Of a DNA stretch of 41,013 bases, positions 2,540 to 35,906 are shown piece by piece. The DNA lies in IMG/VR virus record IMGVR_UViG_3300046737_000067, positions 1-41,013 of that record; one strand, given 5' to 3'. Within the stretch, counting starts at the first letter, position 1. Each line of letters starts with the position of its first letter. The stretch comes from a virus. Below the pieces are notes generated by a model. The model searched no databases. It was not told where the DNA came from and worked only from the letters and a program-made list of their open reading frames with translations. The translations under genes were made by a program, and so were the position numbers.

Positions 2540-3175
2540 TTATAGATATCGAGCGGTGCCTTTTTGAAGGCGATACCGAGCCTGCATGCGCGTCAATCCG
2601 AGCGCATCGGCTGCTTCGCGAATAGTCGCAAACTGTTGACCATCAAATTCCACCGCTCGCGCGGCTGGACTCAACTTGCCAACATGAGAAGCGCGTAGGG
2701 CAGCACGATGCGCGTCCGTCGCATTAACACCCTTATTCCAAGCGACTCGGCCCTTGAGTTTTTCGACTCGCTTGGCTACCACATCGGGCGGTGTCGGAAT
2801 GCCTTTGTTCCATGCCGCATGACCTGGACGCCCGAGCGCTCGCGCGGCAATCTTAGCCCGCGTGCTCTCTGCGTGCTTGCAATCCGGCGTGCCCAATCCT
2901 CCACTGGCGCGGTTATACCCTGCTGGCATCATCGTGCCGAGTGCAGCAATCGTGGCGCGTTCCGCCGCGTAGAGTTCTGCGACGGTGCTAAATGTCGCCA
3001 ATATCGTCACCGTGAATGCGGGCCATCCATCCTCGCGAATGGCGTGCGAAAGCGGATGAGACAATCCTTGATTCGCTTGGCTCCGATGGTCGCCCATCCG
3101 CTGCGCCAGTGTGCGAGTCGTTGCGCCGACGTAAGACATGCCTGTTTTCGTGTTGGTCAATCGGTAGAGTGTCAT
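2540..3175 (-). CDS. GIY-YIG homing endonuclease (free-standing), with C-terminal DNA-binding repeats
   Basis: This 211-residue protein has an N-terminal GIY-YIG nuclease domain: LYRLTN at 3-8 and YVGATTR at 15-21 stand for the two signature strands, followed by the RMGDH helix with its basic residue and the AAERATIAALG glutamate helix. Downstream are repeated AWNKG-containing NUMOD-type segments and a C-terminal helix-turn-helix (ATIREAADALGLTRMQARYRL). The start at ATG 3175 is supported by a strong AGGAGG site five bases upstream. It sits just after the coat gene and is probably a selfish element cutting a nearby target in related phages. Confidence 0.88.
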   Translation of the reverse strand: MTLYRLTNTKTGMSYVGATTRTLAQRMGDHRSQANQGLSHPLSHAIREDGWPAFTVTILATFSTVAELYAAERATIAALGTMMPAGYNRASGGLGTPDCKHAESTRAKIAARALGRPGHAAWNKGIPTPPDVVAKRVEKLKGRVAWNKGVNATDAHRAALRASHVGKLSPAARAVEFDGQQFATIREAADALGLTRMQARYRLQKGTARYL

Positions 3176-4699: not shown

Positions 4700-5305
4700 T
4701 TACGTCGCGTATCGTAAGGCGTAGGCGTGCCAGCGGTCAACCGTCCACGAGGTCCCGCGCTTCGCGGCCGCCATCTTCTCTTTTGTTTCCTGAGAGAATG
4801 TTTTTCCCCGTTGCGCGAGCGATGAGGCTGGACAGGGTTTCCGATTCGCCGCACCGATCTTCGCGCGATGCGCTGGCGACTTGGGGCGCCCCTTCTGGAA
4901 CGCCGACATCTTTCGCCGACTTTCCTCGCTTCGCTTGACGCGCTTGCCCATGTTCAACGCTTGCGCGGCTCGCATGTGCGCAATCGATTCAGGCGTGTGC
5001 TTGAACCCATCCGCAGGCCCAGAACCTGCGCGGCGGGCCGCATTGTAAAGCGCGTGATGCTCGTCAATGCGGCGCTGTTCAAGCGCAATCGCGTCAGATC
5101 GCGACAGGCATTGTTCCATCGTCCACGAAAACGCCGCGCAGCCGTATTTCTGCCAATCGGCCTGGAGTGCCACGTTGTCGTGTTCGCCGCGCCCGAGTGC
5201 GGACAGATGCTGTTGCCAGCGTTTCGCAACATTGAAACTGCTGCCGATGTATCGTCGTCCCGTGACGAGATTGAGAATCGTATAGACGCCCGCGTGCCGC
5301 GTCAT
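4700..5305 (-). CDS. GIY-YIG homing endonuclease between scaffold and coat genes
   Basis: This 201-residue protein has clear GIY-YIG signatures: GVYTILN at 6-12 and RRYIGSS at 17-23, the helix FNVAKRWQQHL with the catalytic-type arginine, and LEQRRIDEH carrying the metal-binding glutamate. The C-terminal half has SPAHRAKIGAANR and SQETKEKMAAAKRG, the lysine-rich NUMOD repeats that bind target DNA. The ATG overlaps the scaffold stop (ATGA), so it is translationally coupled to scaffold. It splits the usual scaffold-coat neighbourhood and is followed by the structured coat leader. It is not clearly paralogous to the other GIY-YIG gene beyond the nuclease fold. Confidence 0.88.
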   Translation of the reverse strand: MTRHAGVYTILNLVTGRRYIGSSFNVAKRWQQHLSALGRGEHDNVALQADWQKYGCAAFSWTMEQCLSRSDAIALEQRRIDEHHALYNAARRAGSGPADGFKHTPESIAHMRAAQALNMGKRVKRSEESRRKMSAFQKGRPKSPAHRAKIGAANRKPCPASSLAQRGKTFSQETKEKMAAAKRGTSWTVDRWHAYALRYAT

Positions 5306-9345: not shown

Positions 9346-9864
9346 TCAGTGGACACGTTCGTCTCGCTTGCGCTGCAAATACGCCAATCGCGCCGCACGG
9401 ATACGTGCGCGTTGTTCGCTGGTGCGGCGCTGGCCGGTATTCGCTGCGCGGATTTTCTCTTTCGCTTCTGCGCTATGCGTCCGTCCAGTGCTCGCGACGC
9501 GATTTTTCTCTTTGGACGCGTTTGTATTCGGGCGTCCGAGATGCCACTCGCGCAACTTCGCCCGCGTCTCGTCCGACACAGGATGGCCCATTGTTCGCTC
9601 ACGAAGCGCAATGATGGCGTCGCGCCGCTTTCCCTCGTCCGCCCAAAAGGCTTTTATGCCGGCGACCATTGACGCGATGTGGTCTTTACCAATCATGGAC
9701 GTGAGCATCTTCCACGCGTGAAAGTCGCGGGTATCGCCGTGCTGTTCCCAAAGACACTTGTGCAGGAACGCGTGCATCGCCACGTTCACGCGAATGACGT
9801 TGCGCGCGTCATACGTGCCGCCCATGTGCCCCGGCACGATGCGATGCTTGTGGAAGTGAATCAT
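9346..9864 (-). CDS. HNH homing endonuclease
   Basis: From ATG 9864 the protein starts MIHFHKHRIVPGHMGGTYDARN and continues VNVAMHAFLHKCLWEQHGD. This is the usual phage HNH arrangement with histidines around the metal (HKHRIVPGH ... N ... H). The C-terminal half has basic repeats (SDETRAKLREWHLGRP, SAEAKEKIRAANTG, SEQRARIRAARLA) that are NUMOD-type DNA-binding segments. A longer frame to 9960 exists, but the conserved start is internal. It interrupts a row of small overlapping genes, which supports insertion as a mobile gene. Confidence 0.85.
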   Translation of the reverse strand: MIHFHKHRIVPGHMGGTYDARNVIRVNVAMHAFLHKCLWEQHGDTRDFHAWKMLTSMIGKDHIASMVAGIKAFWADEGKRRDAIIALRERTMGHPVSDETRAKLREWHLGRPNTNASKEKNRVASTGRTHSAEAKEKIRAANTGQRRTSEQRARIRAARLAYLQRKRDERVH

Positions 9865-9922
9865 CAGAACCACACCACCGCGCACATCGCTCGCCACCGT
9901 GCCACCCAGCGATGCCAGCGCG

Positions 9923-10207
9923 TCATCGCGGCCCTCGATTCGCCATCCCGAGCGCCTCAAGCAGATTCATCTGCGCCTGCGACTGCTGTTGCCCGAGCAG
10001 TTGCTGCTGTAGATACTGCTGCCCGAACAGTTGCTGCCAGTCGCCCTGCAGCGCCTGCGCCTGCATCTGCTGCACCGCCGACGCTTCCCGCGCCCGCTCG
10101 CGCGCATAAATCTCGTCCAACGCGCGCTGATACTCGTCGAGCGTCGGATACCGCTTCCCGTCGCTCAATCGCTCGTCGAGCATCGCCATGAATTCGCCCG
10201 CGTGCAT
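9923..10207 (-). CDS. Gln-rich helical hypothetical protein (94 aa)
   Basis: The N-terminus (MHAGEFMAMLDERLSDGKRYPTLDEYQRALDEIYARER) looks like a folded helical segment. It is followed by a Gln/Leu-rich repeat region that may be disordered or a coiled coil. It starts at ATG 10207, touching the stop of the 51-residue upstream gene. Its role is unknown. Confidence 0.6.
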   Translation of the reverse strand: MHAGEFMAMLDERLSDGKRYPTLDEYQRALDEIYARERAREASAVQQMQAQALQGDWQQLFGQQYLQQQLLGQQQSQAQMNLLEALGMANRGPR

Positions 10208-12768: not shown

Positions 12769-14751
12769 CTACTCACGAGAAGACCGAGTGGCCTCACCAG
12801 AGCCGTTAACAAGGGCCGTCAGGCCGGCGGCCGTGAGCGTGTAGGGCGCGCGTTGTTTGTCGGGGGGCGCCATCAAGCCCGCCAGGACGAGTCGGCTGAC
12901 CGAGGCATTGACGGCTTCCTTGTTCGCATGGAGGGCGACACGAAAGCGTTCGAACGAGGTCAGGCCGTCAGGATGGGTCCGCAGGACCTGCAGCATACGC
13001 CGATCGAAGGCGTGCTCGGCGGCGTCGGTCGTGCGCTGGCGTTCGGCCTGCACATCCCCATCACTGCGCATGTCGGGGTCAATGACGCAGGAGGTGACGG
13101 GTTTTCCGTGGCGGTCGCGCTCGGGGAAGGTCACGCGCTGGCGTCGGCACCGGAGCGGCGCCGGGCGTTCGCCGTCGCGCACTTTCTGCGTCGTTAGGGT
13201 GAGGGGGGCCGATTGCGTAGAGGGATCATAGGTCCCCGCTTCCAGATACAGCGTGGCGTCCACGTTACCGCGGAAGGCGCTGGACCCACGTTCACGCTTC
13301 TTGGTGCTTTCCCCGTCCTGCCACCCGGCGTGATGGATGAGCAAGGCCGCCGCCGTGGGCACAGCCGCCAAGACGCGCCGAATGGCCCGCAGATAGGCGC
13401 TGACCGATTCGCTGCTGTCTTCCGAACCGGTGAGGCTGGCGCGCACGGTGTCGATCATCACGAGCACGATCGGCGGGCGGCCAGACTGCGCGAGCTCAGC
13501 GGCGAGCGTGGTCAGCGCCTGGCGCACATCATGCTCCCCGGCGGACCGCTGTTCGCCCTCCCGTGTCACCACCGGCGACAACGGCGCGTCGGCGCGAATA
13601 TGGTAGACGTGCTCAAGCCGCGCCTGTCGATGCTCGCGCAGGGCTCGGAGCCGGAGCCCGATGGCATCCCCTTCGTAGCCGATATGCACGACAGACCCTG
13701 GCGTTAGACTGCGCCCGTGCCACGACAGCCCGGCGCTGACTGCGGCGGCGAGGTCAAGCGCGATGAAGGTCTTGCCGCCCCCGCTTTCCGCGACGAGCAC
13801 GGTAATACACCCGGCCCACGCCACGCTTTCGACAATTTCAGTCGGGGGAGCGGTCTGCATCGCCTCGTCCGCCGAGAGCACGCGCAAGGTCGGCCGTGGG
13901 ACTTCGTCGGCGTCAGGCGGAGGCGTGTCGAGGTCTGGCGGTTCGCAGCCCGTGCACATCTCGCTCCCGCAGCGGGGACAGGCGCTCGGGTCGCACGCGC
14001 CAGCGAGCGCCTCGAGTTCTGCGACGGTATGACCGGCGTCGAGCCAGTCGCTTACGTCCCCGCCGTCGCCAGCGTGGAAGAACGGCGGGACCGTGACCGT
14101 CGCAATGCCGGCGTCCGCGAGATGGCGCGCGCCGGCGGCGACATGGGCGGCGCCCGGCGGATCGTCATCCTGGAGGAGCACGCACTCGCGCACGCCTGCG
14201 GCGACGAGAGCGGCCGATTCGACCGCGTCCCATTTCCCCGCGCCGCCGCTATTGCAGGTCGCTGGCAGCCCCAGCGACCACAACCGATTGACGTCTTTCT
14301 CGCCTTCACACACAAACAGGCGCGCGTGTCCGGCGAGCTCCGGCAAGCGGAACGGGAGTCGCGTCACCCCCTTGAGATTCCACGTCCACGGCTGGCCGCC
14401 ATTGCTGGTTGGCCGTCGTTGTTTAAACTGTTTCTTCGCGCCGGGCGGTGTGCGGAGTTGCACGACCTGATAGCGCAGCACGCCTGCAGCATCGCGATAG
14501 TCGTGCGTGGCGAGGAGGTCGAGCGACGCACGGACGCGCGCTGGCGAGACATCGTCGTGCGTGAGGCCAGCGGCGGCGAGCAGCGCATCAAGGGGACAAT
14601 GCTGGGACCAGCATTTAAACAGCACATGCGTATCGCCGTTCGTGATGACCAGCGAGCCGCCACCATGCACGGGGCAGATGGTGCGGTATTGGTTGGGACC
14701 GACACGGCGCGCGGGAGGGAAATGGGTCAGGATCTCGGCAAGCGCAAGCAT
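12769..14751 (-). CDS. Primase-helicase (CHC2-type zinc finger, TOPRIM and RepA-like ATPase domains)
   Basis: A 660-residue replication protein. Residues 26-52 (C26-P-V-H29, C47, C52) make a primase-type zinc site. Residues 143-200 are a TOPRIM domain (RLFVCEGEKDVNRLW with its glutamate, then VLLQDDDPPG acidic cluster). A second Cys cluster lies at 253-269. Residues about 305-505 are a RepA/AAA-type helicase with Walker A AESGGGKT at 321-328, Walker B VLVMIDT around 429-435 and sensor LLIHHAG. The C-terminus is likely a winged helix. It probably primes and unwinds phage DNA while the host supplies polymerase. Confidence 0.88.
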   Translation of the reverse strand: MLALAEILTHFPPARRVGPNQYRTICPVHGGGSLVITNGDTHVLFKCWSQHCPLDALLAAAGLTHDDVSPARVRASLDLLATHDYRDAAGVLRYQVVQLRTPPGAKKQFKQRRPTSNGGQPWTWNLKGVTRLPFRLPELAGHARLFVCEGEKDVNRLWSLGLPATCNSGGAGKWDAVESAALVAAGVRECVLLQDDDPPGAAHVAAGARHLADAGIATVTVPPFFHAGDGGDVSDWLDAGHTVAELEALAGACDPSACPRCGSEMCTGCEPPDLDTPPPDADEVPRPTLRVLSADEAMQTAPPTEIVESVAWAGCITVLVAESGGGKTFIALDLAAAVSAGLSWHGRSLTPGSVVHIGYEGDAIGLRLRALREHRQARLEHVYHIRADAPLSPVVTREGEQRSAGEHDVRQALTTLAAELAQSGRPPIVLVMIDTVRASLTGSEDSSESVSAYLRAIRRVLAAVPTAAALLIHHAGWQDGESTKKRERGSSAFRGNVDATLYLEAGTYDPSTQSAPLTLTTQKVRDGERPAPLRCRRQRVTFPERDRHGKPVTSCVIDPDMRSDGDVQAERQRTTDAAEHAFDRRMLQVLRTHPDGLTSFERFRVALHANKEAVNASVSRLVLAGLMAPPDKQRAPYTLTAAGLTALVNGSGEATRSSRE

Positions 14752-15189: not shown

Positions 15190-15393
15190 CTACTTATGGG
15201 CGCACCGTTTGGGAATGCCCACACCACAGACATGCTCCCCAGACGAGACGCATACCGTCTCGACCCAGCGATGATTGCGGCCCTTGACGAACCGTGTATG
15301 CGCCATGATGCCGGGCGTCGCTTTTCGCCCCTTCACCCAGCGGCCACAGCGTGGACACTTCCGCAAGGGAAACGGCCCAGGGCTCGCGCTCAT
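15190..15393 (-). CDS. Small zinc-finger-like protein (67 aa)
   Basis: ATG 15393 opens MSASPGPFPLRKCPRCGRWV, with KCPRCG as one Cys pair and VCVSSGEHVCG plus a late Cys as a possible second. It overlaps the end of the RuvC-like gene by four bases (ATGA). It is likely an accessory DNA-binding protein, but no family could be named. Confidence 0.5.
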   Translation of the reverse strand: MSASPGPFPLRKCPRCGRWVKGRKATPGIMAHTRFVKGRNHRWVETVCVSSGEHVCGVGIPKRCAHK

Positions 15394-15893
15394 CGTTGCA
15401 CGCCCGTGACGGCCGGTGCCGACGCCGCTGGATGCGTGTCGAGCCAGGTGACCGCGACCGCCAGCGCCGCGAAGTGATGCCCGTGCAGGCCGTAGAGGGG
15501 ACCGGGCGTCGCCTTGCGGCCGATGGCCGCCGACCCGCCGAAGCGGTCGAGCAGGCTCTGTCGCACGTTCGCATCCTTCGCCCGCATCGAGCCGCACAGG
15601 TGGAGCTTGACCGCGCGCCGCGGCAGCCGATACCGCTCGAGCCCCGGCCACGCTTCGTAGAACCGGCCGGTCCAGAAGACCGTCTCAAAGGTTTCGGCCC
15701 CGACCGCCATGCCCATCGCTTCGATCTGCTCGAGCACGAGCGTGGCCGAGGCTGGCGCTCGCCGGCAGCGCGCGAGAATCTCGCCGTTCAGGGCAAGGAC
15801 GGCATCGAGCACGGACAGCCCCTGCGCGCCCGTCTGGACGACGACGAGCGCGGACTGCAGGGTGCCGGGGTCTACCGCGTAGAGCACGCTCAC
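15390..15893 (-). CDS. RuvC-like Holliday junction resolvase
   Basis: Starting at GTG 15893 (overlapping the upstream stop as GTGA) gives 167 residues, the usual RuvC length. The RNase H-fold acidic residues are visible: D8 in YAVDPGT, E55 in LVLEQIEAMG, and D107 in the KLHLCGSMRAKDANVRQSLL stretch. The WTGRFYEAW and KDANVRQ segments are typical of phage RuvC-type nucleases. It would resolve branched DNA produced by recombination-driven replication before packaging, and works logically with the exonuclease-annealase gene on the other arm. Confidence 0.75.
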   Translation of the reverse strand: MSVLYAVDPGTLQSALVVVQTGAQGLSVLDAVLALNGEILARCRRAPASATLVLEQIEAMGMAVGAETFETVFWTGRFYEAWPGLERYRLPRRAVKLHLCGSMRAKDANVRQSLLDRFGGSAAIGRKATPGPLYGLHGHHFAALAVAVTWLDTHPAASAPAVTGVQR

Positions 15894-16075
15894 GCGGGCG
15901 CCTGGGGCGTCAGGCGGGCCGCCGGCGCGTCGTCGTCGAGGGGCAGGGTCTGCGGCACCGGGACGGGCGGTGGCGGCTCGCGCACGGGCCGCGGCAGGGC
16001 ATCGTGCGCCGCACAGACGGACGAGCCCGCCCGCGCCAGGCACGGGCAATCGCGCTCGCGGCAGGGGCGGCTCAT
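15890..16075 (-). CDS. Small Cys-rich, Pro-rich protein (61 aa)
   Basis: The N-terminus MSRPCRERDCPCLARAG plus SSVCAAH has four Cys and one His in 23 residues, enough for one zinc. The rest is a Pro-rich tail. It overlaps both neighbours, supporting translation. Its role is unknown. Confidence 0.55.
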   Translation of the reverse strand: MSRPCRERDCPCLARAGSSVCAAHDALPRPVREPPPPVPVPQTLPLDDDAPAARLTPQAPA

Positions 16076-16179
16076 CGCCCATCCTTCCAGTCCCGGTCGA
16101 GCGCGGCGACCCAGAGCACCATGACGGCGACGGCGCCGAACAGGGCACCGGCGGCGAGCAGCATAAGGTCGTGGATCAT
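16072..16179 (-). CDS. Small single-span membrane protein (35 aa)
   Basis: ATG 16179 gives MIHDLMLLAAGALFGAVAVM, then VLWVAALDRDWKDGR. It is a hydrophobic span with a charged C-terminal tail, overlapping its neighbours on both sides by four bases (ATGA). It is too short for routine gene finding but well supported by the overlaps. Its function is unknown. Confidence 0.55.
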   Translation of the reverse strand: MIHDLMLLAAGALFGAVAVMVLWVAALDRDWKDGR

Positions 16180-18246: not shown

Positions 18247-18741
18247 ATGGAGGCGCATCCAATGGAATACGGCGACAAGTTCAGAGAGCGATTCCGATCG
18301 CGCATTCAAACCGTTGACGATGCGACATCGTGCTGGCTGTGGCAACGCGGGCTCGACCGCCACGGATACGGCGCGATTAGTCTCAATGGAAAGATGCTGA
18401 AGGCCCACCGCGTTTCCTGGGAGCTTGAAAACGGCGATATCCCAGACGAGATGTGCGTCTGCCATCACTGCGATGTGCCCGCCTGTGTCAGGCCGTCCCA
18501 CTTGTTTCTCGGCACGCACGCCGACAATTCAGCCGACATGGTGACAAAGAACCGGGTCAACCGACAGCCGCGCAAGTTTGGCGTCGAAAACGGAGGCTCC
18601 AAAATCACGCCGGAAAGTGTCCTGCAAATCAGAGCGATGGTTGCTTCGGGCATGAAGACGCGCGACGTTGGCGCATTGTTCGGCATTTGCAGTTCGCAGG
18701 TCAGCAACATCACACGGCGTATTCATTGGAGAAACGTATGA
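18247..18741 (+). CDS. HNH homing endonuclease (CHHC type)
   Basis: This 164-residue protein has the layout CWLWQRGLDRHGYG, then AHRVSWELENGDIPDEMCVC and HHCDVPACVRPSHLFLG, the HNH_3-like core (VCHHCD ... C ... PSHLFLGT ... N). A C-terminal helix-turn-helix (TRDVGALFGICSSQVSNITRR) adds specificity. It is paralogous to the gene at 40141-40620. It overlaps the next gene by ATGA, so it now drives or shares translation with the recombination gene. A start at ATG 18262 is also possible. Confidence 0.87.
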   Translation: MEAHPMEYGDKFRERFRSRIQTVDDATSCWLWQRGLDRHGYGAISLNGKMLKAHRVSWELENGDIPDEMCVCHHCDVPACVRPSHLFLGTHADNSADMVTKNRVNRQPRKFGVENGGSKITPESVLQIRAMVASGMKTRDVGALFGICSSQVSNITRRIHWRNV

Positions 18742-20306
18742 AGGACAACGAGCTTCTGTTGATTGACCTGAGTTCGCTGGCACATCCCATCTGGCACCAG
18801 TCGGGATCTGAGCCCGACCCGAACCACGTCAGCACGCAAGTCGTCGCCAGGGTCCGCGCGCTCGCCTCCGACCATCCGCACGCCGCGGTCTGCTGCGACG
18901 ACGGGAAGTCCTTCCGCGCCACGGTGGATCCGACCTACAAGGCGCAGCGCCCGGAGCCGATTGCGCCCCTGCAGCACCAGATCAAACTGGCGCGCGAAAT
19001 TCTCATCAAGGACGGCTTCCCGGTCTGGGCGGTGAAGGGGTTTGAGGCCGACGACCTGATTGCCAGCGCGACGGTGCAGGCGCTCGCCATCGAGGACACG
19101 ACGGTGCTGATTGCGTCGGCGGACAAAGACCTGCTGGCGCTCGTCAGCGACCGCGTGAGCGCGAAGAGCCTGACGAACGGCGGCATACTGGGACCGGCCG
19201 AGGTGAAGGAGAAGTTCAAGGTCACGCCGGCGCAGATGACCGATTACCTGTGTCTGGTCGGTGATGCCAGCGACAACATCAAGGGCGCGAAGGGCATCGG
19301 CGGTGTCCGCGCCAGCGAGCTCCTGACGCGCTACGGCTCGCTCAACGGCGTGTATGCCGCGATCGACAAGGGGGCGACGCCGGACATCACGCCGGCGCAG
19401 CGGACGGCGTTGCAGGAGTTTCGCCCGCGGCTGGCGACGGTGCGGCAACTGGTCGCGCTGCGGACGGATGTGGATCTGCCCTTCGCGGAAATCGCGGCGG
19501 AACGGGTGCCGGTGAATGAGCCCGCGCCGCTGGGCGACGACGAGTGGCCGGTGCGCATGACCGACGAGGAACGCTACGCCGTCGCGCCGAAGCCCGAGCC
19601 CGTCCAGCAAGAGATACCAGATGCATGGAAACCCCTCGTGCAGCAGGCCGATAGTGCCATCGTAGCGGCGCAGGCGATGCAGCCACCACAGCCAGACGGG
19701 GAGGGCAAGGAGAGGCCCAGTTCTCCACCGGCGACGGTCCTCGACCCCGTAGGGCCGTCGCCACTTCCACAGCGCACCGAACTGGTCCGCGCCGAGCCCG
19801 ACTGGGACCGGCAGTTGGAGCCGCGCTCGCTGGATGAGGCCGCGAAACTGGCCGCGAAGATGTTCGCGTCACGGCTGTTCTCGGCCTACGGCACCTACGA
19901 GGGCATCTTCACCACCATCATCGCCGGCCGCGAACTGGGGATGCCGGCGATGGCGTCGCTGCGTGCCTTCCACATCATCGAAGGCAAGCCGTCATTGAGC
20001 GCGGACGCAATGGTCGCCTTGGTGATGCGCTCCGGCAAAGCGAAGTATTTCAAGTGCACGCAGCGCACGGATACCATCGCGACATTCAAGACGCTACGCG
20101 TGGGCGAGGACGAAGAGCCCATGACGCTCCTCTACTCCATCGACGACGCGAAGAAGGCGTGGAAGAAAGACCAGAAAGCCTGGGACAACAGTGGCTACGG
20201 AAAGAATCCCGCGGACATGCTCGTCGCGCGGGCGAAGTCGAAGCTGGCACGGCTGGTCTATCCCGATGTCGTCGGCGGGCTCTATGCGCCAGAGGAGATG
20301 GAGTGA
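18738..20306 (+). CDS. Fusion of a 5'-3' exonuclease (FEN/T7 gp6-type PIN) and a RecT-like annealing domain
   Basis: A single 522-residue frame. Residues 1-255 form a 5'-nuclease: D10 (LLIDLSS), R60 and K68 (SFRATVDPTYKAQR), FEADD at 102-106, SADKD at 127-131 and VGDASDNIKG at 174-183 with the following helix-hairpin-helix GIG. All expected acidic residues are present. Residues 256-355 are a Pro/Glu-rich linker. Residues 356-522 carry AGRELGMPAMASLRAFHIIEG, KPSLSADAMVALV, PADMLVARAKSKLARLVYPD and GLYAPEE, the pattern of RecT-like single-strand annealing proteins in many phages. In known systems exonuclease and annealase are separate polypeptides. Start ATG 18738 overlaps the HNH stop. Confidence 0.75.
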   Translation: MKDNELLLIDLSSLAHPIWHQSGSEPDPNHVSTQVVARVRALASDHPHAAVCCDDGKSFRATVDPTYKAQRPEPIAPLQHQIKLAREILIKDGFPVWAVKGFEADDLIASATVQALAIEDTTVLIASADKDLLALVSDRVSAKSLTNGGILGPAEVKEKFKVTPAQMTDYLCLVGDASDNIKGAKGIGGVRASELLTRYGSLNGVYAAIDKGATPDITPAQRTALQEFRPRLATVRQLVALRTDVDLPFAEIAAERVPVNEPAPLGDDEWPVRMTDEERYAVAPKPEPVQQEIPDAWKPLVQQADSAIVAAQAMQPPQPDGEGKERPSSPPATVLDPVGPSPLPQRTELVRAEPDWDRQLEPRSLDEAAKLAAKMFASRLFSAYGTYEGIFTTIIAGRELGMPAMASLRAFHIIEGKPSLSADAMVALVMRSGKAKYFKCTQRTDTIATFKTLRVGEDEEPMTLLYSIDDAKKAWKKDQKAWDNSGYGKNPADMLVARAKSKLARLVYPDVVGGLYAPEEME

Positions 20307-20530
20307 TGCGAACGCTCATCAGCGCATCATGCGGATGGATGCTGTCTATAACGCTTATGAATGCGTTCGGCATCCCCAGATGGCAACCGCTACAAATAGT
20401 AGACGTGGCAGTTGCGCTGTTCTTGTGCGTATGCGTTCCCATCGACCGTTCGCGCGCGTCGCGTGCCATGCTCGCGCGATTCGTAGACCTGACCGGATGG
20501 AAGAGGCCCGACAGTGCTCGTCACTATTGA
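20306..20530 (+). CDS. Small hydrophobic protein (74 aa)
   Basis: ATG 20306 overlaps the fusion gene's stop (TGATG). The product has two hydrophobic stretches (LISASCGWMLSITLMNAFG and IVDVAVALFLCVCVPI) and a basic tail, so probably two membrane segments. It overlaps the DnaQ-like gene by 17 bases. Its function is unknown. Confidence 0.5.
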   Translation: MRTLISASCGWMLSITLMNAFGIPRWQPLQIVDVAVALFLCVCVPIDRSRASRAMLARFVDLTGWKRPDSARHY

Positions 20531-21104
20531 CACCGAAACAGCCGGCCTCAAGCCTGAGCATCCGACGATTCAGGTAGCCGCGACCGCGCGCGAGGGCGGC
20601 GTCGAGCTCGCGTATTTCGAGCAGAAGATTGCGTTCGATGAGGCCGCCGCCGACCCGCAGGCGCTCGCGGTGAACCACTACCGCCGCGAGGACTGGGTGG
20701 ATGCCGTCGCCGGCCCAATTGCGGCCTCGCGCTTCGCCGCCTGGCTGCGGCCCTACTGCACGCTCGAGCGCGTGAGCAAGGCGGGCAATCCGTATCGCGT
20801 GGCGAGGCTCGCGGCGTATAACGCTGGTTTTGATACTCCGCGGCTCGAGGCGCTCTTCGGGACGCAGTTCATGCCGTGGGATCGGCGGGTGCGGGATGTG
20901 CTGCAGCGGGTGCTGTTCTGGTTCGATGAGCATCGTAACGAGCCAGCGCCGCTCGCGTTCAAGTTGTCGATGGTGGCAGAGCACTTCGGCATCAAGACCG
21001 ATGGCGCCCACGATGCGCTCGCTGACGCCAGAATGGCTGCCGCCGTGTTGGAGCATGTGCAGTATCTACAAGCACAAGAGGAGCGATCTGGACATGGCTT
21101 CTAA
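20514..21104 (+). CDS. DnaQ-like (DEDDh) 3'-5' exonuclease
   Basis: This 196-residue protein starts at GTG 20514. Motif I is IDTETAG (D6, E8), motif II lies in RLAAYNAGFDTPRLEAL, and motif III is GAHDALADARMAA with the HxxxxD pair. All catalytic acidic residues of the proofreading-exonuclease fold are present. With no phage polymerase in the genome it probably trims 3' ends in recombination or repair, or could act with the host polymerase (inference). It sits between a membrane protein and a 152-residue gene. Confidence 0.83.
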   Translation: MLVTIDTETAGLKPEHPTIQVAATAREGGVELAYFEQKIAFDEAAADPQALAVNHYRREDWVDAVAGPIAASRFAAWLRPYCTLERVSKAGNPYRVARLAAYNAGFDTPRLEALFGTQFMPWDRRVRDVLQRVLFWFDEHRNEPAPLAFKLSMVAEHFGIKTDGAHDALADARMAAAVLEHVQYLQAQEERSGHGF

Positions 21105-21552
21105 CAACATCGCCCCGCCGCTCGCCGGCAAGACGGACCCCCGCCTCGAAACCCTGCGCCTGTTGCAGAGCATCGATGCGACGCTGAAGCAACTGCTCGC
21201 GCGATTCCCGGCGCCGACGACCGCCGCGGACCCCGCGATGACCGACGCCGAGCTCGATCAACCGTTCAGCGACGAACTCATCCGCATGATTCCGCGCGAC
21301 TACGCCGCCGGTGATGTCGTGAAGGGCACGAAGATGTCGCTCTGCCCGCCGGCGTTTCTCGAGCAGTATGCGCAGGCGCACGACTACTTCGCGCAGAAGA
21401 ACGACGCCGACGGCGTGAAGGCGAAAGACGACAAACCGAAAAGTGTCTATGACCGGCGCACGGCACGACGCGCCCGCGCCTGGGCGACGCGCCTGCGCGG
21501 CGGCTGGACGCCACCTATCACCACCATTGACACCGAAAGCGCAGGTTTCTGA
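21094..21552 (+). CDS. Hypothetical recombination-region protein (152 aa)
   Basis: ATG 21094 lies 11 bases before the DnaQ-like stop, with a GAGGAG site upstream. The N-terminal helix (DPRLETLRLLQSIDATLKQLLARF) is coiled-coil-like. The middle has DELIRMIPRDYAAGDVVKGTKMS and the end is basic. The last ten residues (TTIDTESAGF) closely mimic the start of the upstream exonuclease. Its function is not recognised; single-strand binding is a possibility, not shown. Confidence 0.65.
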   Translation: MASNNIAPPLAGKTDPRLETLRLLQSIDATLKQLLARFPAPTTAADPAMTDAELDQPFSDELIRMIPRDYAAGDVVKGTKMSLCPPAFLEQYAQAHDYFAQKNDADGVKAKDDKPKSVYDRRTARRARAWATRLRGGWTPPITTIDTESAGF

Positions 21553-32434: not shown

Positions 32435-33888
32435 TACGTGCCGCCTTTCTTGACCATCTTGCCGGTCTTTGGATCGCGGACCCACTGTTCGACCGCGCCG
32501 GCCGGGGGCGGCGTGGCCGGAGGGGCGCCTGTATTCTGGTTGGCGTAATGCCCCATCGGCGTTTTCAGACTCGCCTTGCGGTTCTGCAGGAATTCTTCGA
32601 CCCGCGCCATGTTGGACATGAACGTCTCAGGCGCGAGATTCGGGTCCACCACGTCGAGGCCGAGTTGTAACTTCATGTCCGTCATCGCGCCGCCACCCAG
32701 CGCCGTGCCGAGCTCGTCCCCGATCAGTTTCTGCGCCTGCCGAATGTTCGCGACCGTCGTGTCCCCGAGTTTCGCCTGCACCGAGCCCAGGAATCGATTG
32801 ATGTCGGGATACTTCGTGCGATCCCAACTGTTCGACAGGTCTACCAGTTTCTTGATGTTCGGCAGCACGTTATCGACGGCCGCAATCGCGGTCACGGTCT
32901 TCGGATTCGTCGCGAACTTGTAGCCCGATTCAAAGGCGGCCGGCGTGAATTCAGGATTTAGATCGCGCGCTTTGTCGTAAATGGCCGCTTTCTTCCCCGC
33001 CATCGCCCCCGATCGCGACGGATAGAGCCGCAAGAACTGCGAATAGGTCAAGTCACCCGAGGCGAGGTCTTGCGCGACGCGATAGTCACGCGATCCCGGT
33101 GGCACATCCTGCGCGGACGCACCCGAGGCCGCTTGCGCCGCGTCTGACTCGCGCCGTTCGCGCGCTTGCGCCACGCCCAACTGTCCGCGCGCAATCGCGT
33201 TGGTGGCCTGCTGTTCCGGCGTAATGCCGCCCTTCGTCCCCGCGGCAACCTGCTGCTTGACGGCGGTATCGGCCTGGATGCCCGGTAACTGCGCGCGTTC
33301 CATCTCCGTGAGCGCCTTCTGCGGTCCCTGCGCATACGCGATCACGCCGTCGAGCAGGCGCGGCAACGCTTGCGGATTTTGCTGCAGCGTTTGCTCCCAC
33401 TGCGAGACGTCGTGGCCTTCTTTCTTCGCGTGCTCGATGGCCGCCTGCGCGGCCGTCGTCATGGCTTCCGGCCCGTCCTTCTCCCACGATTTCACGGACG
33501 CCGCGAGATGGCCGAAGTAGTCGCGTTCGGCGGTTTCGGCTTCCAGTTTCGCCTTGCGCGCCTTGGTGCTGTATTCATCCGCGTCGGAGAACTGCTTCTG
33601 CACGGTGGCGACGAGGTCGCCGTGGCCGCCCTTGCGCAGGAGCGTGATCGCCTCGTCCGGCGTCGTGGCCGTCGAGAGCGCCTGCTGGAGCGCGGCGCGG
33701 TCTTCGTTTTGTTTCGCGAGTCCTTCGGTGCGTTCGCGTTCCTGCGCGGCGAGGGCTTGTCGCTGTTCCTGCAAGCCCTGCGCGGCTTGCTGCTGGTTGC
33801 GCAGTTGCAGGATCTGGCTCAGCGACTCGAACGGCGTGTTGATGCGCGGTTGCTGCAGCGTGCTGTAGATCGAGGCGTCAGCGGGCAT
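32434..33888 (-). CDS. Large helical internal virion/ejection protein (484 aa)
   Basis: MPADASIYSTLQQPRINTPF is followed by an extended coiled coil (LRNQQQAAQGLQEQRQALAA, KARKAKLEAETAERDYFGHL). It is mainly alpha-helical with repeated Gln/Ala. It sits between the Gln/Asn-rich protein and the glycine-zipper protein, as DNA-injection proteins cluster in P22-like phages. Confidence 0.6.
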   Translation of the reverse strand: MPADASIYSTLQQPRINTPFESLSQILQLRNQQQAAQGLQEQRQALAAQERERTEGLAKQNEDRAALQQALSTATTPDEAITLLRKGGHGDLVATVQKQFSDADEYSTKARKAKLEAETAERDYFGHLAASVKSWEKDGPEAMTTAAQAAIEHAKKEGHDVSQWEQTLQQNPQALPRLLDGVIAYAQGPQKALTEMERAQLPGIQADTAVKQQVAAGTKGGITPEQQATNAIARGQLGVAQARERRESDAAQAASGASAQDVPPGSRDYRVAQDLASGDLTYSQFLRLYPSRSGAMAGKKAAIYDKARDLNPEFTPAAFESGYKFATNPKTVTAIAAVDNVLPNIKKLVDLSNSWDRTKYPDINRFLGSVQAKLGDTTVANIRQAQKLIGDELGTALGGGAMTDMKLQLGLDVVDPNLAPETFMSNMARVEEFLQNRKASLKTPMGHYANQNTGAPPATPPPAGAVEQWVRDPKTGKMVKKGGT

Positions 33889-35906
33889 TAGCCGTTTCCA
33901 TATCCGTAGGGATTCGTCGGAATACCGCCGGAATAGGATGGATACACGGGGGCTTGCGGCCCGGCGGTCGCACCCGGTAGCCCTTGCGGCAGTCCGGTGT
34001 TATACGGGATATTCGGCGGCACCGCTGGACGCTGCTGCGGATACAACTGATTAAAGTAGGCCGCCTGCTGCGCCGCGTTCCCAATGTTCCCGAGCGCCCC
34101 CGCATACGCATTCGCGCCAGCCATGCCGGCCGCCGCATTCGCATTGCCCTGCCCGCTATAGAGCCCGGCGGCGCTATTGCCGTAATTGAGGGCGGAATTC
34201 TGCCCCAGCCCGGCGAGCGCCAACTGCTGATTGAACGCCGTGTTCTGATTGTTCTGATACACGCCGTAATTCGTATTGAACGTCTGCAACCCCTGATTGA
34301 AGCCCTGGTTCTGCCCCGCCAGCCCCAGATAGCCCTGCGACACGCCGAGATTCCCCTGCGCGACGCCGAGATTGCCGAGCCCGAGGTTGTAGCTCTGGTC
34401 CGCTTGCTTGTTGCCGAGCGAGAGATTCCCGAGCCCCAGGTTGTAACTGTTCGCCGCCTGCGCCGCGCCGAGATTCAACTGCCCGAGGCCGAGCGCCGCG
34501 TTCGTGTTCGCATTGAACGCGCCGAGTTGATTCGCGTTGTTCGCCTGCTCGACGTTGAAGCGATTCGCGAAGTTGCTCTGCGCCGCCGCCGCGTTCTGCG
34601 AGGCATTGAACTGCGCATTCTGCTGCTGCAGCGGCTGATAGGCGTTATAGGCCGCCAACTGGTTCTGAATGTTCTGCGCCTGCGTGTTGTAGTCCATGCC
34701 GGCGTTGAACGTGCCCGCTTGCAGGTTCGCGCCCTGATTGGCGAGCGCCGCCTGCTGCTGCTGCCCGGCGTTGAACTGCTGCGCCTGCTGGCCGGCATTC
34801 ACGTTGAACTGCGCAGCGTTGAGGTTCGCGCCCTGGTTCGCGAGTTGCGCGGCCTGCTGGAACTGGTTTGTGAGCCCGTAGGCTTGCGCCTGCGCGGCGT
34901 TGTTCTGCCCGGTGACCGATGCCTGATTCGTCAGGTTCTGCTGGTAAGTCTGGCGGGCGCGTTCGTTCGCGGCCTGGTATTCCTGGCTCGCGGACTGGCC
35001 CGCGTAGTCCATAAGCGCCTTGCCGGTCGCGCCCGTGTTGAGGAAGCCGCGCGCCGCCGCGCTGTTCTGCAGCGCCCCGAGTCCCTGCGACAGTCGGAAC
35101 TTGTAACTGGGATCTTGCTGGAGTTGGTCGGCCGTCAGGTTCTGGAAGCCGGACGGATCGTTGACATCCTTCGCGGTCAGCGCCTGCGGTCCGGTGACTT
35201 GGTCGGCGGTGACCTTCGCGGGTCCGCCGATCGTCTGCCCGGTGACCTGATCCGCCGTGACCGCGCCGGGCTGGTTGATGCTGCCGAGCGTCAGCTTGTC
35301 CGGCCCCTGCACGGCGGTCGGCGTGTAGTCCTGCGCGGCGGTGAGTTCCTTGGCGCTAACCGAGCCGAGGTCACGCGGCAGCGCCGCCTGCGCGCCAGTG
35401 GCCCCCAGCGACGAAAAGCCGAGATCGCCCATGCCGGCGACCGGCCCCATCGCCGCCGCGCCAGCTGCGCCAGCGCCCTCGCCCGTGTCCCACGTCCATG
35501 CGGTGCCGCCGAGTCCGGCGGACTGCACGACCTGCACGAGCTTGCCGGTCGAAGGGTCCACAATCTTGCTGCCCTTGGACCCCCCAATGGACGAGCCCGA
35601 CGCCGCGAGCTCCGGATGCTGCGCGAAGGCTTGCTGGAGGCCCGCAGGCGTATGCGGATACTGGTTTAGGATGGCCGAGACGTTCTGCTGGTTGAACTGG
35701 AACGGGGCGCCGCCACCGGCGGCTGGTGTGCCCTGCGCCGTGCCCCCCGGCACGCCCGCTAACTGGTCGACCGCGAGCGGCCCCGCGCCCGTCACCCCGC
35801 CCTGCTCGTAGACCTGCGGTTGGACGGCCGGGGCGTAGTTCCCCACGTTGCCCCCCGCATTCGGGCCGAGCAAGTCCTGGTGCTGGTCAAACCAATCGTT
35901 CGGCAT
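33888..35906 (-). CDS. Gln/Asn/Gly-rich repetitive virion protein (672 aa)
   Basis: After an N-terminal start MPNDWFDQHQDLLGPNAGGN, residues about 290-600 are dominated by Asn, Gln, Ala and Leu with degenerate repeats such as NLGLGNL, AAQFN and NAGQQ. This is a low-complexity segment expected to be beta-solenoid-like, amyloid-like or disordered. Comparable long low-complexity proteins in podoviruses lie in the ejection module. ATG 35906 overlaps the upstream stop (ATGA). Confidence 0.65.
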   Translation of the reverse strand: MPNDWFDQHQDLLGPNAGGNVGNYAPAVQPQVYEQGGVTGAGPLAVDQLAGVPGGTAQGTPAAGGGAPFQFNQQNVSAILNQYPHTPAGLQQAFAQHPELAASGSSIGGSKGSKIVDPSTGKLVQVVQSAGLGGTAWTWDTGEGAGAAGAAAMGPVAGMGDLGFSSLGATGAQAALPRDLGSVSAKELTAAQDYTPTAVQGPDKLTLGSINQPGAVTADQVTGQTIGGPAKVTADQVTGPQALTAKDVNDPSGFQNLTADQLQQDPSYKFRLSQGLGALQNSAAARGFLNTGATGKALMDYAGQSASQEYQAANERARQTYQQNLTNQASVTGQNNAAQAQAYGLTNQFQQAAQLANQGANLNAAQFNVNAGQQAQQFNAGQQQQAALANQGANLQAGTFNAGMDYNTQAQNIQNQLAAYNAYQPLQQQNAQFNASQNAAAAQSNFANRFNVEQANNANQLGAFNANTNAALGLGQLNLGAAQAANSYNLGLGNLSLGNKQADQSYNLGLGNLGVAQGNLGVSQGYLGLAGQNQGFNQGLQTFNTNYGVYQNNQNTAFNQQLALAGLGQNSALNYGNSAAGLYSGQGNANAAAGMAGANAYAGALGNIGNAAQQAAYFNQLYPQQRPAVPPNIPYNTGLPQGLPGATAGPQAPVYPSYSGGIPTNPYGYGNG

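Follow-up and report, generated by a model that had tools for sequence, protein, structure and literature searches.

A single-chain fusion of a FEN-type 5' nuclease and a Red-beta/RecT-type annealase in uncultured phages, a predicted recombinase

Phage exonuclease-annealase pairs are the basis of recombineering. In the known phages, the job is divided between two proteins. Here, we describe a gene where a single chain, recurring in dozens of uncultured phages, carries a 5' nuclease of the FEN type and, after a linker, the core of a Red-beta/RecT-type annealase. Both domains belong to known families. It is their fusion that is a new arrangement of two-component recombinases. The protein is probably a one-chain exonuclease-annealase recombinase of the lambda Red/RecET ("SynExo") kind, its activity being predicted, and the analysis supports an initial annotation that had read the gene in this way.

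The gene and its surroundings

The gene lies in a stretch of viral DNA of 41,013 nucleotides, called here "the window". The features needed below are these.

12769..14751, minus strand: primase/helicase (AAA_25)
15390..16148, minus strand: RuvC-like Holliday junction resolvase (phrog_1770, 2.7e-10)
18247..18741, plus strand: HNH (HNH_3) endonuclease gene, overlapping the fusion start by 4 bases
18738..20306, plus strand: fused 5' nuclease-annealase gene (open frame, Pfam/PHROG matches to both halves, 45 fused loci)
18738..19508, plus strand: FEN/PolA-type 5'-3' nuclease domain, residues 1-257, with nine acidic residues and a C-terminal SAM/helix-hairpin-helix fold
19509..19811, plus strand: Pro/Ala-rich linker, residues 258-358, pLDDT mostly below 50
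19812..20306, plus strand: Red-beta/RecT-type annealase core, residues 359-522, without a C-terminal extension
20514..21104, plus strand: DnaQ-like 3'-5' exonuclease (RNase_T), between the fusion and the partner gene
21094..21552, plus strand: downstream partner gene, conserved, 152 amino acids, of a family often having an acidic SSB-like tip plus F/W

The fused frame runs for 522 codons without a stop, giving a product of 522 amino acids. It starts with an ATG preceded by GGAG, and this start overlaps the stop of the upstream HNH gene through the sequence ATGA. The HNH_3 gene probably encodes a mobile nuclease. HNH genes abut the fusion gene, either before or after it, in L050 (2754-3347), L051 (9623-10129) and L167 (5329-5799) as well; these are perhaps mobile nucleases aimed at the fusion locus. 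Small nuclease frames that look GIY-YIG-like and HNH-like by eye also lie among the head genes of the window (2540-3175, 4700-5305 and 9346-9960, all minus strand). Among its late genes, positions 33888-35906 (minus strand) encode a repetitive Gln/Asn/Ala/Gly/Leu protein of 672 amino acids, perhaps an ejection or tail protein.

Recurrence of the fusion

Scans of IMG/VR, first with the protein and then with alignments, delivered four and then three more full-length fused relatives, at approximately 48-56% identity. One more came from a Thermoanaerobaculia MAG contig. Scanning with the annealase domain alone gave 72 loci, and at none of these was a separate FEN frame detected near the annealase. 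After repeats were removed, 45 loci (40 at less than 90% identity) carried FEN and annealase profiles in one stop-free frame. Thus, the view in the initial annotation that one unbroken frame holds both domains is borne out by recurrence in uncultured phages. A stop codon or frameshift between the domains, which it had named as refuting evidence, was looked for and found at no homologous locus. Two long annealase frames (L187 and L189) were considered as extra fusions and rejected; their N-terminal parts have no nuclease match and look like shadow frames.

The fusion appears in no record among 50,697 named phages (queries P0001, L180 and L176; 80% coverage), and it is absent from 72,556 plasmids. 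In the phylum of the MAG match, 396 genomes were searched, and a fusion-length frame occurs in that MAG only; three others have weaker matches, in frames of 302-357 amino acids. A search of open-access text found no description of a FEN-annealase fusion.

One might ask, of course, whether such a gene is simply an artefact, either two genes read through in one GC-rich frame or a contig assembled as a chimera. At the region's 65% GC, long spurious frames are common. Against this, the same domain order and frame recur at 45 loci from many separate metagenomes, where the domains are conserved (mean pairwise identity 50% for FEN domains and 58% for annealase domains) and the linker is not. These loci already refute an artefact, to which we give almost no credence. 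Indeed, 45 fused loci, in which the domains but not the linker are conserved, mark the fusion as a selected architecture rather than an accident.

The nuclease half

Modeling gives the N-terminal half, with confidence, the FEN fold. Both domains expected in the FEN superfamily (PF02739 and PF01367) exceed their cut-offs. The resolvase-like N-terminal domain (5_3_exonuc_N) matches residues 6-160 at E 1.2e-27 (97.1 bits, cut-off 34.3), and the SAM (H3TH) C-terminal domain (5_3_exonuc) matches residues 162-251 at E 3.3e-21 (76.0 bits, cut-off 40). The PHROG match is to the exonuclease family phrog_107 (5e-29).

The predicted nuclease has the acidic two-metal active site of the FEN superfamily. 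Its nine acidic residues (D10, D54, E103, D105, D106, D129, D131, D176 and D179) are unchanged in 40 of 40 fused homologues, as are K68 and R71. Because the nine are invariant, conservation indicates that the nuclease half is very probably catalytic.

Compared with solved structures, the model is nearest to PLEX1, a plastid exonuclease (Z 28.7), followed by ExoIX (Z 27) and T5 FEN (Z 24.9); the M. smegmatis FEN is also among the nearest folds. Sequence comparison places PolA 5' nucleases and Xni closest among solved proteins. Thus, a complete FEN-type nuclease, with all its acidic residues and helix-hairpin-helix, stands as initially annotated, and the structure prediction suggested there returned the expected fold. 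Only the label "T7-gp6-like" should give way, on these nearest matches, to "PolA/T5-FEN/ExoIX-like". The T5 D15 FEN, the PolA 5' nuclease domains and ExoIX/Xni have the same fold and catalytic residues as are found here. They differ in being free-standing or joined to a polymerase; in the collections searched, none has an annealase attached.

The linker and the annealase half

A Pro-rich linker of about 100 residues had been noted, and the Pro/Ala-rich segment at residues 258-358 agrees with it. Residues 260-359 are predicted to be disordered. Among homologues, the linker ranges from 39 to 173 amino acids, varying in both length and sequence.

When the full-length model was used in a structure search, the matches listed all fell on residues 1-266, and the annealase was therefore folded separately. 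Folded alone with 57 sequences, its core reached a pLDDT of 90. The best PDB match is lambda Red-beta (7ujl; Z 8.8, 137 residues aligned, covering Red-beta residues 3-169), then Listeria phage RecT (7ub2; Z 6.8, Foldseek probability 0.99), with RAD52 a further match after these; the RecT/Red-beta match is the best of all, yet remote (Z 6.8-8.8). The model has the core fold of the family, a beta-hairpin, a helix, a three-stranded sheet and a long helix. A sequence profile of the annealase run against all PDB chains gave Red-beta as its sole significant match (E 3.3e-5). Among solved structures, then, Red-beta is the closest to the annealase half.

Family profiles lead to the same place. In the whole 522-residue protein, the Pfam RecT match (E 3.8e-5, 23.8 bits) falls just under the curated cut-off of 24. 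With the annealase domain searched alone, a check that the initial annotation had suggested, RecT (PF03837) scores 27.6 bits and passes. Seven of nine members match this profile at E<=0.01, and PHROG adds RecT-like matches to phrog_4171 (3e-17) and phrog_561 (7e-15). Because fold and PDB profile matches both point to Red-beta/RecT, the C-terminal domain is predicted to be an annealase core of that fold. The RecT-like assignment made initially thus survived the test of whether the fold was an unrelated one.

Exchange of the two halves

If the two domains had been finely tuned to each other, their trees should agree. FEN and annealase trees do have a deep split in common (rho 0.53, above all 2000 permutations). 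Inside the core clade, no such agreement is seen (rho 0.13, n=36), and we make no claim of co-adaptation for this reason. Further, L155 and L170 have FEN halves that are 90% identical and annealase halves that are only 62% identical. Here, recombination within the gene, its site probably the linker, has swapped domains between phages. Because the core trees are uncorrelated and these identities do not match, tight co-adaptation does not seem to be needed. The sequences argue, instead, for halves that are exchanged between lineages and used as modules.

This suggests a second way to see the gene, in which the domains are co-translated yet independent, so that fusion gives co-expression without any functional hand-over. 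A linker free to vary between 39 and 173 residues would fit, as would the shuffling of halves. Yet all 40 fused members keep the fusion even as domain identities drop to about 35-60%, and the tail with which an annealase recruits its exonuclease was lost along with fusion. Independent domains are therefore improbable.

The missing tail

That tail is best known from lambda. There, Red-beta uses its C-terminal domain to bind lambda Exo and SSB; truncated Red-beta anneals without supporting recombination, the domain being dispensable for annealing (PMC8303780, PMC5052646). SynExo recombinases have such an exonuclease/SSB-binding domain. The fused annealases end 0-10 residues past the core in 40 of 40 cases. 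Unfused relatives (n=18) extend 37-218 residues past it, and 16 of the 18 by at least 115. Ancestry confounds this comparison: all fused proteins fall in one clade (SH-aLRT 82), and tail loss and fusion may reflect one event.

By analogy with lambda, the covalent link may replace the exonuclease-recruiting tail. Because the nuclease is already attached, a tail that binds it in trans would be unnecessary.

The SSB link and other neighbours

The conserved gene that follows the fusion belongs, at 33 of 40 fused loci, to a family of proteins of approximately 150 amino acids; 0 of 18 unfused loci have it in that place. Of 32 complete partners, 25 end in F or W, and the endings DDDIPF, DDEIPF and DDDVPF occur. 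A DDDIPF-like ending is the tip of bacterial SSB. The partner in the window ends in TESAGF, a weak version of this. The family has no Pfam or PHROG match, and six partner proteins searched with Pfam SSB (PF00436) gave none even at E 10. Its members include the window gene (21094-21552) and those of L169, L004, L003 and L151, and many in the family have the SSB tip without a recognised SSB domain. In three deep-branch loci, a true SSB gene takes the partner's place, overlapping the end of the fusion in L176 (1e-29) and L177 (3e-30) and lying close to it, by homology, in L181. The partner family could, from these endings and positions, be a new SSB-mimic or loader.

An SSB gene just downstream of the annealase is also found with Sak4 of HK620, where the SSB tip stimulates annealing (PMC5928155). 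The fusion likewise is followed by an SSB or an SSB-tipped protein. The two differ in that Sak4 is RecA-like and has no nuclease fused to it, and in that no Pfam or PHROG domain is recognised in the partner family.

NinB/Orf mediator genes lie downstream of the fusion in three fused genomes (L049, L160 and L169). The Orf fold is that of the Red-beta C-terminal domain (PMC8303780), the domain that fused annealases are without. A RecF/SbcC-like ATPase (AAA_23) is a neighbour of the fusion in L002 (1283-2608) and L050 (5103-6410), once upstream and once downstream.

The initial annotation placed the fusion with a DnaQ-like exonuclease and a RuvC-like resolvase in a compact system for recombination-dependent replication. 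Both genes are indeed in the window; in the RuvC-like frame, homology covers residues 89-234, and the real start is further downstream in the frame. But because DnaQ lies close to the fusion at just 2 of 40 loci (the window and L136), and the resolvase is near none of the other fusions, they form no conserved module with it. Recombination-dependent replication itself is plausible, because a primase/helicase is present and neither PolA nor PolIII-alpha, the two polymerase families searched, was detected.

How one chain might work

Under the preferred reading, the FEN-type nuclease would strip the 5'-ended strand of phage DNA that is broken or replicating, and so bare a 3' single strand. The linker would pass this to the Red-beta-like annealase, which would oligomerise on it and pair it with a complementary strand. 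The nuclease could additionally trim 5' flaps at the joint. Recruitment of the exonuclease, in lambda the work of the Red-beta C-terminal domain, would fall to the covalent link, and the SSB or SSB-tipped protein encoded downstream would supply or contact SSB.

Taken as a whole, that one polypeptide resects, anneals and trims, that the link replaces a lost tail, and that a new family copying the SSB tip brings SSB partners, the scheme is tentative, less likely than not. Two further facts weigh against the preferred reading. Since FEN enzymes are structure-specific, they may not resect blunt ends processively. Further, L002, a short contig carrying the fusion, also encodes a Cas4-like exonuclease, located two genes downstream.

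Both facts invite a different division of labour. The classical substrates of FEN/PolA 5' nucleases are flaps and nicks. The FEN half might accordingly serve mainly to trim 5' flaps once annealing is done, or to clear Okazaki RNA at the fork, with a different nuclease, from the host, making the 3' tails and the annealase tethering the protein to forks and joints. PolA, T5 FEN and ExoIX are, after all, the nearest homologues of the nuclease, L002 might draw on its extra exonuclease, and single-strand annealing does yield flaps. What makes this unlikely, though still worth weighing, is the content of the 29 fused genomes. PolA or PolIII-alpha is present in 0 of 29, and no other recombination exonuclease (PDDEXK_1 or YqaJ) passes its cut-off in any. 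Conversely, the nearest unfused relatives (L178, L179 and L183) carry a resection-type exonuclease in that place, a PD-(D/E)XK gene immediately downstream. The same 29 genomes differ in virion type, a P22-type portal being above cut-off in 20.

Comparison with known systems

Lambda Red, like the fusion, pairs a 5'-3' nuclease with a Red-beta-fold annealase. In lambda, a PD-(D/E)XK toroid, Exo, forms a chain of its own and is brought in by the C-terminal domain of Red-beta (PMC8303780). The fusion instead has a FEN-type nuclease within the annealase chain and lacks the C-terminal domain. Among named phages, the nearest annealase relatives belong to RecE/RecT and YqaJ/RecT pairs (for example, in Gordonia Wizardvirus and Thermobifida phage P1312). 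In these, the exonuclease is upstream of the annealase, the order seen in the fusion. Unlike the fusion, they use two genes, a RecE-like exonuclease and an annealase with a C-terminal extension.

SynExo systems encode exonuclease and annealase together, and the 45 loci do so in one chain. They are also defined by separate proteins and a PD-(D/E)XK nuclease, and in both respects the fusion departs from them. By analogy, then, it would work like the SynExo group, being itself neither lambda Red nor RecET.

The fusion thus adds the FEN fold to the known nuclease partners of Red-beta-like annealases. Debate continues on why the two SynExo proteins need to be in contact and on the order of their action (PMC7496540, PMC5052646). 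With a natural fusion, their coupling becomes directly testable within one protein. For the biotechnologist, it may serve as a single-gene tool for dsDNA recombineering in those bacteria where host-specific partners fail.
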